IMG/VR virus record: IMGVR_UViG_3300010885_018102
Coordinates: 1-24,717 of that record
Origin: a virus
Strand: one strand, 5' to 3'
DNA length: 24,717 nt
Of this stretch, positions 2,927 to 12,614 are shown one piece after another; positions within the stretch are counted from its first letter, which is position 1; each line of letters begins with the position of its first letter. The notes beneath the pieces are model-generated. The model was not told the origin of the DNA. It worked only from the letters and a program-made list of their open reading frames with translations, and made no database searches. Both the position numbers and the translations under genes were made by a program.

Positions 2927-3839
2927 CGGTCACCTCCTGCGGCTCGATCGCGTCGTGCCGCTCCTTGACCAGTACTGCCAACGCCTCGCCCTGCTCGGCC
3001 GTCAGCTGGCCGTCTGACAGCAGTGCGTCGATGCGGAGGTCGATCTTGCCGAGCGTCCGCACGCTCTTGGCCTCGGCGATGTACCGCACCACCTGGTCGT
3101 ACAGCTCGGTGTCGATCCGCTTGGCTCCCGTGCCGGTGAACAGCGGGGCCAGAGCCTCGATGGTCATGGGCAGCTCTTCGCCCAGCCCGTACCGGTTCTT
3201 GGCGTCGTAGGCCGCCGCACGCTCGGCGTAGACGACGCGGTCTTTGCCACCAATCGCCTTCCGCTTCCCGTCGCTGCCCTCGATCAGCCGCATGCGGTAG
3301 TTGGCGAAGAGCAGCGCGTCCGCCCATTCCTTGACGATGGGCGACACCTGCTTGGACAGCCGCAGCTCGTAGCGGTCGTAGCCGTCGGTCTGGTCGGGCG
3401 GCGACGTCCTCTGCACCTTGGCGTGGGCCACGAGCAGCACGTGCAGACCGGCACGGTGCAGGTTGTCCAGGCCCTCGACGAACCGCCCCATATGCTCGGC
3501 CACCACCGTGTAGCCCTTGCCGAAGCCGTAGTCCTCGATCGACTTCTTGCCGTCCTGCTTGCAGACGAACTCGACGAGCGCCCGCTCGGCCCAGTCGATC
3601 GAGTCGATGACGATCGTCTGGTAGCCGTGCTTCTCGACGGCCAGCTCGGCCACCGCGCCCCGCAGGCTCGGCCAGTCCTGGCACGCGACACGGTCGACCT
3701 CGAGCTGCTTGGTGCCGTCCTCGGTGTCGAGAAACAGCGGCGTCGGAAACTGCGCCGCCAGCGTCGTCTTACCGATGCCCTCGACGCCGTACAGCACGCA
3801 CCGCACGGGTGCAGCCTGCTTGCCTTTCACGATCTTCAC
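2913..3839 (-). CDS. Sak4-like RecA-fold ATPase / single-strand annealing recombinase (308 aa)
   Basis: GTG 3839 is the start: AGGAGG lies seven bases upstream, and it overlaps the csrA stop. A Walker A motif GVEGIGKT is at residues 18-25, a Walker B strand TIVIDSID at about 75-82, and a HVLLVAHAKVQR segment matches the sensor histidine region. This is the AAA_24/Sak4 arrangement, a RecA-core NTPase that in phages promotes single-strand annealing with SSB. The length of about 300 aa suits the family, and the C-terminus (ELYDQVVRYIAEAKSV onwards) is helical. The SSB-like gene lies two genes downstream, supporting the call. An alternative is a general phage NTP-binding protein; annealing activity is not visible from the sequence itself. 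Confidence 0.8.
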   Translation of the reverse strand: MKIVKGKQAAPVRCVLYGVEGIGKTTLAAQFPTPLFLDTEDGTKQLEVDRVACQDWPSLRGAVAELAVEKHGYQTIVIDSIDWAERALVEFVCKQDGKKSIEDYGFGKGYTVVAEHMGRFVEGLDNLHRAGLHVLLVAHAKVQRTSPPDQTDGYDRYELRLSKQVSPIVKEWADALLFANYRMRLIEGSDGKRKAIGGKDRVVYAERAAAYDAKNRYGLGEELPMTIEALAPLFTGTGAKRIDTELYDQVVRYIAEAKSVRTLGKIDLRIDALLSDGQLTAEQGEALAVLVKERHDAIEPQEVTDGVA

Positions 3840-4045
3840 TTCACGTCCTCCTGTTGAGTTGGTTCGTCCTCGTCCCACTGATCCATCGCGATCCTGTCGA
3901 ACACCTCGCCGCGGAAGATGTCGACACGCTGTGGCGCGCGAAACGCCAGGCGGACGACGTTGCCGCGGATCTCCTGCACCACGATTTCCATCCGTGCATG
4001 CGGCACGACGACACGCTCGCCCTCCGCTCGCGTGAGCACTAGCAC
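3836..4045 (-). CDS. csrA: CsrA-family RNA-binding regulator (69 aa)
   Basis: GTG 4045 starts the frame, with AAGGAGGGCTAC directly upstream. The protein begins MLVLTRAEGERVVV, the signature first strand of CsrA, followed by IVVQEIRGNVVRLAFRAP and VDIFRGEVFDRI. Residues needed to bind GGA motifs in RNA hairpins, L4, R6 and the conserved arginine at position 45 (R44 in E. coli), are present. The usual lysine at position 7 and glycine-aspartate loop are changed (RAEGE, VPHAR). After position 53 there is an acidic tail DQWDEDEPTQQ. The dimeric protein blocks ribosome sites or changes mRNA stability. Here it is coupled to the recombinase gene, whose own AGGAGG site could be a target. Confidence 0.9.
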   Translation of the reverse strand: MLVLTRAEGERVVVPHARMEIVVQEIRGNVVRLAFRAPQRVDIFRGEVFDRIAMDQWDEDEPTQQEDVK

Positions 4046-4766: not shown

Positions 4767-4829
4767 CGGCGACTCCGGGCGGCATGGCGTATCCCTCCGC
4801 CGCACGCCGTCGTGACGTGACGGGGGCGG

Positions 4830-4859
4830 ATGCTACGGGGACGCAATAACTGCCGTCAA
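4830..4859 (-). promoter_or_regulatory. Possible sigma-70-type promoter for the leftward early operon
   Basis: On the minus strand TTGACG (4859-4854) is followed after 18 bases by TAGCAT (4835-4830), a fair match to -35 and -10 hexamers. It lies after the repressor's putative terminator and about 60 bases before the first early gene. This would put transcription start near 4823. The spacer is one base longer than ideal and only the -35 matches well. Confidence 0.35.
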
Positions 4860-4889
4860 GAGGAGTTTGTACGTCGCCGTAAAAGCCGG

Positions 4890-4914
4890 AAAACCACGTA
4901 AAACGACTACGTGG
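4890..4914 (-). terminator. Putative intrinsic terminator after the repressor gene
   Basis: On the minus strand CCACGTA (4914-4908) and TACGTGG (4900-4894) form a perfect 7-bp stem with a 7-base loop, followed by four T (4893-4890). The stop codon of the repressor lies inside the hairpin. It could stop repressor transcripts before the early operon. The short stem and short T run make it weak; the same inverted repeat could instead be an operator. Confidence 0.45.
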
Positions 4915-5158
4915 TCAGCTGCTCGACCTTGATGTCGAGGGTGCTAGCCAGTGCTAGCACGGTCCCGATCTTGGGACTCTTGATTCGACCAGTAAGGATG
5001 CGGTTCAGCGTCGGCACCGTGATGCCGGCCCGGTCAGCTACCTGGTCGATGTGCAGCCCTCGCTTGGCTGCCCACTGCTCGATCCGCTGACCGATCAGGC
5101 ACCGCTTAAGGACACGTGGCCGGCCGCCTGCGTGACGTTTGTGGCTTGCGGTCGCCAT
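4907..5158 (-). CDS. XRE-type helix-turn-helix repressor (83 aa)
   Basis: The ATG at 5158 has GGGAGGAG seven bases upstream; the longer open frame to 5392 has no comparable site. A basic N-terminal tail with an AT-hook-like AGGRPR motif (residues 10-15) precedes a classic lambda-repressor-like domain: GQRIEQWAAKRGLHIDQVAD, RAGITVPTLNRILTGRI and a final LALASTLDIKVEQL helix. This is the DNA-binding half of a C1/Cro-type protein without a peptidase or dimerisation domain. It is transcribed away from the integrase and in the same direction as the early genes. It is probably the lysogeny regulator, but its operators are not known. Confidence 0.75.
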   Translation of the reverse strand: MATASHKRHAGGRPRVLKRCLIGQRIEQWAAKRGLHIDQVADRAGITVPTLNRILTGRIKSPKIGTVLALASTLDIKVEQLTT

Positions 5159-5397
5159 TCCGCGGCTCCTCCCTGAGCGCTTTGCCTTTTCGGGCGTAGA
5201 TCCCGATGGTTCCAGTGGGCCTACCGGGGACAGGGTTGCGATCCCGTCGGGATTGCAACGTTTGAAAGTGGCGGGGACAGGATGAAACCCCGCAAAACCG
5301 GCCGACCCGCACAGCCCGCACGACCGGACTCCCTTCGACGGACGGAGCGCACCCGCACGGACGCGTGACCTATCCCTGAGTAGGAGGATCACGCACC
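5159..5397. promoter_or_regulatory. Divergent control region between repressor and integrase
   Basis: This 239-base non-coding stretch must hold the leftward repressor promoter and the rightward integrase promoter, but no strong -35/-10 pair is evident. It contains a 25-bp imperfect inverted repeat (5235-5259), a second inverted repeat GCGGGG/CCCCGC (5271-5276 and 5288-5293) and two copies of CGGGGACAGG 47 bases apart (5226-5235 and 5273-5282). Clustered repeats next to an integrase fit an attachment or arm-site region or operators. AGGAGG at about 5381 serves the integrase. Confidence 0.4.
5235..5259. repeat. 25-bp inverted repeat upstream of integrase
   Basis: GTTGCGATCCC and GGGATTGCAAC are mirror arms of 11 bases with one mismatch and a 3-base centre. 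The left arm GTTGCGATCCC recurs exactly at 6329-6339, just past the integrase, so the integrase gene is bracketed by this 11-mer. Possible roles are an integrase or repressor binding site or part of attP. Confidence 0.45.
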
Positions 5398-6300
5398 ATG
5401 ACTCTCGACGCGTTTCTCGACACCGTGTACGTGCCGCTGCGACTGCGCGGTAGGTCGCGCGAAAGTGTCCGCCTGCTGCGGCACGCCATCACGCAGTTTT
5501 CCAAGTGGCTCGGACGAGCCGCGCTCCTCGAAGACCTCGAGGACCTGACCGTCAGCCAGTTCCTCGCAGTGCGCGGCCAGCGGCTTTCGCCCAACAGCGT
5601 GGCCCGCGAGCGGTCAGGGCTCTTGGCCCTGTGGAACCTCGCCCAAGGCCGCGGCCTCGTGAAGCTCCGCCCGTCGGTCTCCCCCGAGCTGGTGCCGCAG
5701 TCGACTCCGCGAGCGTTTACGACGGACGAGCTGGCCCGGCTCGCCGACGCCGGCCGGCAGGCGAGCGGCTGGGTCGGGCCGGTGCCTGCGTCAGTGTTTT
5801 TCCCAGCGCTGATCGCCGTGGCACTGGAGACCGGCGAGCGGATCAACGCGATCCTGTCGACGCCCCGCATGTGCTGGCGTCGGCCGACGCTCACCGTGCC
5901 GGCCTACGTCCGTAAGGGCGGACGCCAGGAGCGTGTTTACGAGCTGTCGCCCGAGGCCTCGGACCTGGTCGACCGCGTAGCGGCCCATACGGGGCCGACC
6001 GTGTTCTGGTGGGTTTCGTCTGGAACAGCGCTTCGCAAACGCTGGAAGACCATCACGAGGCGCGCCGGCCTCGGGGACGGCCGCGAGGTCCAATTTCATG
6101 CCCTGAGACGCTCAACCGCCTCACATCTGGCGGCCGCTGGACTCGATGCGACGGCATTCCTCGGACATTCGTCCGATCGTATCACTCGGCGTAGCTACCT
6201 AGATCCTCGCGTGGTCGACGCTCATCGCCCCAAGGCGTGGCAGGCCATGCCGCGAATCTTTAAGCCCGATGACCACGAGCCGCCGGCTCGCACCGCGTGA
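5398..6300 (+). CDS. int: Tyrosine recombinase, phage integrase (300 aa)
   Basis: The protein catalyses site-specific recombination between phage and host attachment sites. An N-terminal SAM-like DNA-binding domain (about residues 1-95, with SVRLLRHAITQFSKWLG and RLSPNSVARERSGLLALW) precedes the catalytic domain. Catalytic residues are in place: R148 in ETGERINA, K173 in VRKGGRQ, H234 and R237 in HALRRST, H257 in FLGHSS and the nucleophile Y267 in RRSYLDPR. The length is normal for a small integrase. ATG 5398 is preceded by AGGAGG about ten bases away. It is the first gene of the only rightward block and is followed by an excisionase-like gene. The attachment site itself is not identified. 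Confidence 0.92.
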   Translation: MTLDAFLDTVYVPLRLRGRSRESVRLLRHAITQFSKWLGRAALLEDLEDLTVSQFLAVRGQRLSPNSVARERSGLLALWNLAQGRGLVKLRPSVSPELVPQSTPRAFTTDELARLADAGRQASGWVGPVPASVFFPALIAVALETGERINAILSTPRMCWRRPTLTVPAYVRKGGRQERVYELSPEASDLVDRVAAHTGPTVFWWVSSGTALRKRWKTITRRAGLGDGREVQFHALRRSTASHLAAAGLDATAFLGHSSDRITRRSYLDPRVVDAHRPKAWQAMPRIFKPDDHEPPARTA

Positions 6301-6386: not shown

Positions 6387-6566
6387 ATGCGGATCGACAC
6401 CGACGACTACGTCACGTGCACCCACGCCGCCGAGCTGGCCGGCGTGTCGAGGCAGTGGATGCGGCGGCTGGCGGAGGACGGGAAAGTGCGGGCGGTCGTG
6501 ATCGACGGCTTGCTGTTCGTGCACCGAGCCGACGCCCTCAAGTTGTCACGTGACAACGGCCGATGA
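6387..6566 (+). CDS. Excisionase-like helix-turn-helix protein (59 aa)
   Basis: The frame from ATG 6387 encodes a compact winged-HTH: YVTCTHAAELAGVSRQWMRR, then LAEDGKVRAVVIDGLLFVHR, then ADALKLSRDN. This is the HTH_17/MerR-like excisionase pattern, in which a recognition helix is followed by a two-stranded wing. Excisionases bind DNA near attP and direct the integrase towards excision. The position right behind the integrase on the same strand fits. The ribosome site is weak (CAAGG about 10 bases upstream). A 16-bp palindrome overlaps its last codons, possibly an autoregulatory site. It could also be a general small regulator. Confidence 0.7.
   Translation: MRIDTDDYVTCTHAAELAGVSRQWMRRLAEDGKVRAVVIDGLLFVHRADALKLSRDNGR
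6542..6557. promoter_or_regulatory. Operator-like palindrome 1
   Basis: GTTGTCACGTGACAAC is a perfect 16-bp palindrome that overlaps the 3' end of the excisionase-like gene. A near-identical site lies 29 bases downstream (6571-6586). Tandem identical dyads spaced by about three helical turns are typical of dimeric repressor operators. Confidence 0.55.
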
Positions 6567-6568
6567 GT

Positions 6569-6588
6569 GTGTTGTCACCTGACAACAC
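6569..6588. promoter_or_regulatory. Operator-like palindrome 2
   Basis: GTGTTGTCACCTGACAACAC has perfect 9-bp arms around a CC centre. Its core GTTGTCACCTGACAAC (6571-6586) differs from palindrome 1 in one central base. It lies 20 bases before the start codon of the 23-aa gene, where a bound protein, or an 8-bp RNA hairpin with an ACCU loop, could control that gene. There is no T run after it, so it is not a standard terminator. Confidence 0.55.
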
Positions 6589-6608
6589 CACAGCCAAGGA
6601 GGGCTACC

Positions 6609-6680
6609 ATGTCGATCACAGTCTGGCTCGAGCTGTTGCTGCTCGTCGCTCGCATCCTGTCGGCCGGCGGCGCGTTCTAG
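6609..6680 (+). CDS. 23-residue hydrophobic miniprotein
   Basis: ATG 6609 follows a strong AAGGAGGGCTACC site. The peptide begins MSITVWLELLLLVARILSA and ends GGAF before TAG. Nearly the whole chain is one hydrophobic helix, long enough to cross or lie in a membrane. Its TAG stop shares three of its four bases with the stop of the convergent gene (CTAG at 6677-6680). The consensus ribosome site, the closeness to palindrome 2 and the exact abutment to the facing gene support a real gene. Possible roles include a small toxin, a holin-like peptide or a membrane modulator; none can be shown. Confidence 0.5.
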   Translation: MSITVWLELLLLVARILSAGGAF

Positions 6681-11418: not shown

Positions 11419-12614
11419 CGTGGTCCTCCTGGTGGTGGTCCCGATACGTGCATGCTCGACAGCCCGCCGCCGCGCTCGTACACAAACAACTCCATCGCCT
11501 GCCTGTTGCCCACGAAGCCCTGCTGTGCGTGCCACTCGTCAGGCGGACACAGGGCAGGGGCCACCCGCACGAGCACGCCGTCGATCGTCTCGATCGGCCG
11601 ACTCCACTCGGCGGATTGCTGGTGGTAGTGCCCGGTGTGGATCTCCCGGTAGGGGCACTGGCTCCACAATTCCGCCGCCTCAAGCGCCATGAGCTGCGGC
11701 AGCCGCTTTTTGGCCCGGTGGCCGTGGCAGAAGCCGAGCAGGTTGCCGGCGTGGTGCAGGTACTTGCGGGGCGTGAACGTGTCCTCGATCCGCACCCGGC
11801 GGTCCTTGCGGAAGCGCTCCTGCAGGATCCGCAGCCACGCCCATGTCAGCGTCTCGTCGTGGTTGCCGTGCACCGTGAGCGTGTCGGTCGGGGCGATGTC
11901 GCCGGCCAGGTCCACGACACGCAGCAGCTCGTCGGTGCCGACCTCGATCATCTTCTGGAGCCGGCCGTCCCGCTCAAGCGGCGTGCCGCTCGTCGTGGTG
12001 CCGCTCGGCGTGTCGTAGTGGTACACGTCGCCGAGCGTGGCCACTGTCAGCCGGCTCGGCCGCATGGATGCGGCGATTGACAGCAGCTCCTGAGACGCCT
12101 CACGGATGAGCGTGGCCGCGATGCCGACGTCGTAGTCCTGCTGGCCGGTCGTGCGAGCCCACGCGTACTTGCCGAAATGCGGGTCGGCTATCACGAGCAC
12201 CGCCCAGCGGTCGCCCTTGACGACCTTGGCCTTCGGCCGGGTCGGCCGCACGATGTCGCGGCTGGCCGCTGCGATCATCGCCTCGACGACCTCACGCACG
12301 CCCGGGCCGGCGCGCGGCTTCAGCCGCACAAAAACGCGAAACAGCTCGGTCACCACCGGCTGGCCGGTCGACCGGTCGACAGACATGCCTTCCCACTTCG
12401 TGGCCTCGGACGCCGCGACCTCGTACCTGGTCATGTCGGCCTCGATGTGCCGCAGGAGGTCCTCGACCGTGCGGATCGTGCGCGAGACGCTGCGGGCCTC
12501 GACGGTGTCGCCGTCGGTGCGTTGCGTGATCTGCTCGGTGTCCTTGCCCGGCGGCACGTCGGCTGCCGCCTCGGCCAGGACGGCGTCGGCTAGTGGCTTC
12601 GTCGTCCGATCCAC
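11415..12614 (-). CDS. Calcineurin-like metallophosphoesterase (399 aa)
   Basis: GTG 12614 is the start, with AAGGAG a few bases upstream; the longer frame up to 12779 reads through another gene. All motifs of the family appear in order: D144-x-H146 (IADPHFG), GD at 195-196 (TLGDVYHY), GNHD at 250-253, H297-G-H299 (FCHGHR) and GHYH at 328-331. These bind two metal ions and hydrolyse phosphodiesters. The first 130 residues lack the motifs and include a helical VEDLLRHIEADMTRYEVAAS part. Phage members of the family may process DNA ends, nucleic acids or signalling nucleotides. The substrate cannot be told from the sequence. It is coupled to the MazG-like gene. Confidence 0.85.
   Translation of the reverse strand: MDRTTKPLADAVLAEAAADVPPGKDTEQITQRTDGDTVEARSVSRTIRTVEDLLRHIEADMTRYEVAASEATKWEGMSVDRSTGQPVVTELFRVFVRLKPRAGPGVREVVEAMIAAASRDIVRPTRPKAKVVKGDRWAVLVIADPHFGKYAWARTTGQQDYDVGIAATLIREASQELLSIAASMRPSRLTVATLGDVYHYDTPSGTTTSGTPLERDGRLQKMIEVGTDELLRVVDLAGDIAPTDTLTVHGNHDETLTWAWLRILQERFRKDRRVRIEDTFTPRKYLHHAGNLLGFCHGHRAKKRLPQLMALEAAELWSQCPYREIHTGHYHQQSAEWSRPIETIDGVLVRVAPALCPPDEWHAQQGFVGNRQAMELFVYERGGGLSSMHVSGPPPGGPR

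Follow-up and report, generated by a model that had tools for sequence, protein, structure and literature searches.

Paired operator-like palindromes at the end of a phage excisionase-like gene are conserved and occur with that gene independently of integrase and repressor

The window, the whole stretch of DNA analysed here, is a 24.7-kb fragment (24,717 bases) from an IMG/VR viral contig. Its genes include those for an AAA ATPase/Sak4-like protein, a CsrA-like protein, an XRE repressor, a tyrosine integrase and an HTH_17 protein. The CsrA-like RNA-binding regulator is encoded at 3836-4045 (Pfam E=2.8e-14). Two palindromes, P1 and P2, lie where the gene for a 59-aa excisionase-like protein (Xis-A) gives way to a 23-aa open reading frame (Table 1). 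Both contain the element GTTGTCA-N2-TGACAAC, giving four half-sites in all, and, as a first-pass annotation of the sequence had pointed out, the two copies are identical except for one central base and lie 29 bp apart from centre to centre. That annotation described two exact dyads spanning 6542-6588. P1 is indeed a perfect 8/0 palindrome, whereas in P2 the 7-bp arms enclose a CC centre that is not palindromic (9-bp arms when its flanks are included, GTGTTGTCA-CC-TGACAACAC); both palindromes are present in that span, and P2 ends 2 bp before its stated end, at 6586. Their placement was described correctly: P1 lies over the 3'-terminal codons of the excisionase-like gene (6387-6566), and P2 precedes the 23-aa gene, ending 9 nt before its Shine-Dalgarno sequence AAGGAGGG (ATG at 6609).

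Table 1. Position of the palindromes and of neighbouring features in the window.
Feature	Position	Strand	Remarks
XRE/Cro-CI-type repressor gene	4907..5158	-	HTH_3 E=7.6e-10; swapped while P1/P2 unchanged
Probable attP of the type-1 integrase	5249..5282	.	~1.3 kb from P1/P2, upstream of int
Type-1 tyrosine integrase	5398..6300	+	Phage_integrase E=3.7e-10; cassette exchanged independently of the palindromes
Xis-A, 59-aa winged-HTH excisionase-like regulator	6387..6566	+	Proposed P1/P2 binder
P1, operator-like palindrome GTTGTCACGTGACAAC	6542..6557	.	Overlaps last codons of the 59-aa excisionase-like gene
P1-P2 spacer	6558..6570	.	13 bp; holds the xis stop codon
P2, operator-like palindrome GTTGTCACCTGACAAC	6571..6586	.	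Non-coding
Shine-Dalgarno sequence AAGGAGGG of the mini-gene	6596..6603	+	Kept in most relatives
23-aa hydrophobic peptide gene, MSITVWLELLLLVARILSAGGAF	6609..6680	+	Proposed target

The pair is very unlikely to be a product of chance, as had been supposed: when the window was shuffled 300 times with its dinucleotide composition preserved, no shuffle contained two 7-2-7 palindromes with identical arms within 60 bp. Because the P1 sequence forces them, the end of xis-A contains two codons that this genome seldom uses, TTG (6.7% of Leu) and TCA (8.6% of Ser). The further sites of the same type for which a scan had been proposed did not turn up, since no third copy of P1/P2 with up to 2 mismatches was found in the whole 24,717-base window. 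An intrinsic terminator at P1/P2 was rejected because no GC-rich hairpin with a T-run was found.

Related loci were collected without reference to the palindrome pattern, by mutually independent searches with the integrase and with the 59-aa protein. The P1/P2 pair, with a distance of exactly 29 bp, is present at the 3' end of xis-A in all 41 contigs found with the 59-aa protein, a few half-sites being altered, and in most of these AAGGAGGGC and then a short ORF come after it. When the paired pattern itself was searched for, with gaps of 5-30 allowed, it turned up in 33 viral contigs, 30 of which are orthologous loci with identical spacing throughout. L012, L013 and L015 (L numbers denote collected loci) were rejected as orthologous pairs, their contexts and spacings being different. 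The unrelated contig L013 carries at least five tandem TTGTCA-NN-TGACAA-type palindromes at 11800-12200. Lack of conservation in relatives would, according to the first-pass annotation, have counted against its reading; in dozens of uncultured relatives the pair is kept.

In 16 sequences differing mutually by more than 6%, conservation of the arms is 0.964 for P1 and 0.969 for P2, compared with 0.728 for the upstream coding DNA, 0.692 for the 13-bp spacer and 0.5 for the P1 centre. The arms are conserved beyond their surroundings, as expected of operators, and the central dinucleotide of P1 is free to vary among these 16 diverged phages. At the orthologous loci the length of the spacer is invariant and its sequence varies except for CGAT. 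Since P2 is non-coding, the constraint acts on the DNA, and by these sequence comparisons P1/P2 is a conserved, operator-like DNA element. Variation hits single half-sites: L144-L146 have GTTGACA in both outer half-sites and L140-L143 have CGACAAC in both right half-sites. Half-site substitutions in L144-L147 go together with changes in the recognition helix; the CGACAAC half-sites of L140-L143 are not accounted for by such changes.

The repeats might also act as RNA, folding into two mRNA hairpins or one 16-bp stem that controls translation of the mini-gene. They do show a folding z-score of -3.3 with two hairpins, and L144-L146 show compensation at one pair, between position 5 of P1 and position 12 of P2. 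However, the long stem is unpaired at its centre in 8-10 of 15 sequences, the local hairpins lose pair 5-12 without compensation in 2-3 of 15, and no poly-T follows the repeats. The RNA stem or hairpins were rejected because pairing is not consistently kept, and we consider a function of this kind very improbable. The earlier proposal that the palindromes are operators fits the lack of consistent RNA pairing, the conservation above the flanks and the fixed 29-bp spacing.

Two binders had been put forward, the XRE repressor and the excisionase-like protein, and gene exchanges among the relatives bear on both (swap coordinates take the first base of xis as 0). Paired palindromes are typical of lambdoid operators and the XRE gene is ~1.4 kb away, which would suit operators of this CI/Cro-like phage repressor. 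Yet homology between the window and L114 breaks at -1561 to -1218, a stretch that contains XRE, and is 94-95% to either side of it; the L114 XRE is 25.6% identical to that of the window, and the palindromes are identical. Among the relatives the XRE versions are unrelated or 25-36% identical while P1/P2 is unchanged, and the XRE/int intergenic region, the expected place of XRE operators, contains no copy. Since xre has been exchanged for unrelated versions with the sites unchanged, XRE is unlikely as the binder; XRE operators were rejected on these gene swaps and have very little probability in our judgement. The XRE gene forms a compact swapped cassette (window 4826-5169; L114, L119, L121, L122 and L126) in phages otherwise 90-97% identical, an exchange pattern as expected for immunity switching.

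Excisionase/integrase attachment sites, either directionality elements or the attP core itself, would also be a natural reading of palindromes that adjoin int and an excisionase-like gene, whose inner half-sites face each other with core-like spacing, and whose neighbour Xis-A has a fold closest to phage Xis. The exchanges of the integrase make this improbable. To either side of the region from -1555 to -4 the window and L129 share 93% identity; within it they differ in the integrase cassette (the L129 integrase is 28% identical to that of the window), and the pair is kept. The same integrase exchange distinguishes L130 from L135 and L138 from L139; L131 and L137 break further upstream, homology returning at xis -344 in L137, again with the pair retained. 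The integrases of L129, L135 and L139 are at 25-34% identity, and homology is back at xis -4 to -2. Unrelated cassette types have thus replaced one another, with breakpoints where xis begins, and have left the palindromes in place. Integrases ~80% identical occur without palindromes: of the loci selected by integrase, all 19 whose contig includes the complete xis-A have the pair, against 0/53 integrase-related loci without a related xis. An attP core would be expected to travel with its integrase; P1/P2 is kept with unrelated integrases and absent with related ones. Moreover, the likely attP lies elsewhere, and sites of recombination directionality factors (RDFs) are direct repeats 10-11 bp apart (PMC7498355). 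The attP core and Int arm sites were rejected on the cassette swaps and the location of the likely attP.

The type-1 att element, GGGATTGNAAC...TGGCGGGG[AG]CAGGA, stays with type-1 integrases whether xis is present or absent; in the xre-int gap it ends in TGGCGGGGACAGGA or a close variant. In phages with the alternative integrase type this gap contains a partial tRNA gene (Rfam tRNA, E=9.8e-6 in L144), which in L144 is apparently tRNA-Arg(ACG) judging from the anticodon loop. The tRNA fragment (e.g. in L129 and L144) and the type-1 element are each the probable attP, and int and its att element are exchanged as one unit. These sequence comparisons show that P1/P2 is found only with xis-A, independently of XRE and integrase and outside the likely attP.

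A second regulator family provides a further comparison. L101 encodes an integrase 77.5% identical to that of the window and a regulator homologue 51% identical to Xis-A (E=4e-18), and behind its regulator gene GTATCCGATCGGATAC replaces the GTTGTCA element. The 16-bp palindrome of this 51%-identical family is GTATCCGANNGGATAC. In relatives, various cargo genes have consensus sigma-70 promoters (TTGACA-N17-TACAAT) that this palindrome overlaps, and a related site coincides with the TACAAT box in the promoter of the regulator gene itself. A collection-wide pattern scan identified 10 contigs with two promoter sites, and the sites flank a second-family regulator gene in 10/10. An autoregulated repressor has this layout of sites, which supports the same role for Xis-A. 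The swaps, together with the different palindrome beside the 51% homologue, indicate that the operator sequence tracks the excisionase-like protein, as an operator is expected to follow its regulator. Of the two binders first suggested, it is the excisionase-like protein that co-occurrence and the matching operator switch in its homologues favour. P1/P2 could also belong to another regulator, encoded far away in the phage or, as a transcription factor, by the hosts of all these phages: 16-bp palindromes are bound by numerous host regulators, and the window is only a 24.7-kb fragment. This is unlikely, if a shade less so than attachment sites, given that the operator sequence changes along with the type of the adjacent regulator and that the pair occurs only beside xis-A. 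Dimeric binding, also proposed earlier, we infer only from the dyads.

Xis-A matches the excisionase families below the curated cutoffs: Pfam HTH_17 with E=3.7e-4 and 21.1 bits (gathering cutoff 27) and the NCBIfam excisionase domain TIGR01764 with 18.8 bits (cutoff 28.8). Its AlphaFold model, a confident one (pLDDT 85.9), has the small winged-HTH fold of the excisionase class. The closest solved fold is Pukovnik Xis (TM 0.70), followed by BldC, TraN, the phage P2 DNA-binding protein, RacA, Tn916 Xis and RdfS. The sites do not have the excisionase-class form of direct repeats near attP, being palindromes 29 bp apart and ~1.3 kb off; further, unrecognised Xis-A sites could still lie at attP. 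We take Xis-A to be an autonomous winged-HTH regulator. Among named phages and plasmids no match to xis was found, the integrase search of named phages gave one phage with a 28% match, and a scan of genome contigs with the Xis alignment returned only three short unrelated HTH matches. In L130, L131, L138 and L144 a -10-like box (TAGAAT, TACAAT or TAGCAT) ends ~8-10 nt before the xis ATG, a position from which the xis transcript may be leaderless. One 41,957-bp relative, IMGVR_UViG_3300042879_001711 (L113 and L148), has xis at both contig ends and is therefore probably a circularly assembled complete genome.

The 23-aa peptide beside P1/P2 is a new conserved peptide. Exactly 23 aa are found in 35 of 36 distinct homologous sequences, with the consensus MNxxVWIELLIxVLRIVAAGxAG, and a pN/pS of 0.26, compared with 1.09 and 2.06 for the two alternative frames, identifies the ORF as a gene under purifying selection. 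The family is absent from the family libraries searched. At the mini-gene position the most divergent of the phages with xis-A (L144-L147 and L026) have other small ORFs of 43-47 aa. The peptide also occurs in phages without xis-A, several of which have a different HTH gene upstream with a TTGAC-type promoter in between. The peptide promoter of L080 and L088, TTGACGTATAGC-N8-GCTATACG, stands behind a different HTH gene and has an inverted repeat, possibly a third regulator-operator pair for the 23-aa peptide. With the NCBIfam DinQ_rel profile 7 of 26 peptide variants gave weak matches, the best (18.1 bits, E 0.0018) lying under the cutoff of 35, so the profile match expected of a DinQ/TisB-type toxin is not reached; for the function of the peptide, this faint similarity to a DinQ-type membrane toxin offers no more than a lead. 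Extra genes stand right behind the 23-aa ORF in L119, L122 and L127 (1.6-2.5 kb after xis), ahead of the convergent late genes, which suggests a cargo site behind the operator pair.

We propose that P1 and P2 are probably operators of Xis-A that control the xis/mini-gene junction, most likely repressing the 23-aa peptide and limiting read-through. Two Xis-A dimers, or a tetramer over the four GTTGTCA half-sites, would bind at the fixed 29-bp spacing, presumably in a cooperative manner. Bound Xis-A would repress rather than activate, by analogy with the second family, and the position of the 23-aa peptide gene makes it the presumed target. Xis-A at P1/P2 could also act as a roadblock to the xis transcript and so limit read-through from the xis operon. 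Some features count against this proposal. The distance of 29 bp does not correspond to an integral number of helical turns, and the sites are palindromic, unlike the direct repeats of mapped Xis/BldC-type sites, which weighs against Xis-A as the binder. In contrast to the second family, where the operator lies over the promoter, no sigma-70 promoter is recognisable near P1/P2 of the window, which makes it uncertain which transcript is regulated and in which direction. A wider reading, which we offer tentatively and regard as rather doubtful, is that the window shows an excisionase-fold protein turned palindrome-binding repressor, no longer dependent on integrase, within an undescribed module, in which an almost invariant 23-aa membrane-type peptide is silenced by interchangeable HTH regulators. 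Each small HTH regulator would then have its own palindromic operator, the phages would be temperate, and the peptide might be a membrane-active toxin like DinQ or TisB, or an exclusion or lysogeny peptide.

The analysis gives a sequence-level answer to the question of which protein uses P1/P2. It provides candidate regulator-operator pairs for very small phage regulators (GTTGTCANNTGACAAC and GTATCCGANNGGATAC) and uncovers a conserved family of 23-aa peptides whose role between phage and host is directly testable. That the xis-like gene remains when the integrase and the likely attP are swapped calls for caution in annotating excisionases by position.

Small winged-HTH proteins that are excisionase and transcriptional regulator at once are known from phages, namely Apl of phage 186 and Cox of P2 (PMC7498355). 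Like these, Xis-A is a small phage wHTH protein beside an integrase with several, presumably cooperating, sites and a proposed role as a transcription regulator. Apl binds direct repeats of 6 bp, spaced by 10-11 bp, both at attP and at pR-pL (PMC7498355), whereas here two 16-bp palindromes stand 29 bp apart and far from the likely attP. RdfS of ICEMlSymR7A (PMC11963761) and XisF4 of Pf4 (PMC7379572) are excisionase-fold regulators of neighbouring promoters, the combination proposed for Xis-A. RdfS shows negative autoregulation and has been shown to act at attP (PMC11963761); P1/P2, by contrast, stays when integrase and attP are exchanged. BldC, a MerR-like wHTH protein that binds direct repeats head to tail (PMC5859096), is close to the predicted fold of Xis-A, a wHTH without the MerR coiled coil, but the half-sites here are inverted. 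Where sites of small Xis/BldC-type proteins have been mapped, they are direct repeats spaced by about one turn of the helix (PMC7498355, PMC5859096). The short, single-helix hydrophobic peptide resembles those of the dinQ/agrB and tisB/istR type I toxin loci (PMC3567139). DinQ is a toxic inner-membrane peptide of 27 aa whose promoter is overlapped by two closely placed LexA operators (PMC3567139); the window likewise has two close operator-like sites, but LexA is the repressor of DinQ and the DinQ_rel match of the window peptide is below the curated cutoff. Phage operators are an ordinary class of feature, and what is unusual is their proposed assignment to an excisionase-fold protein that is apparently detached from its integrase.
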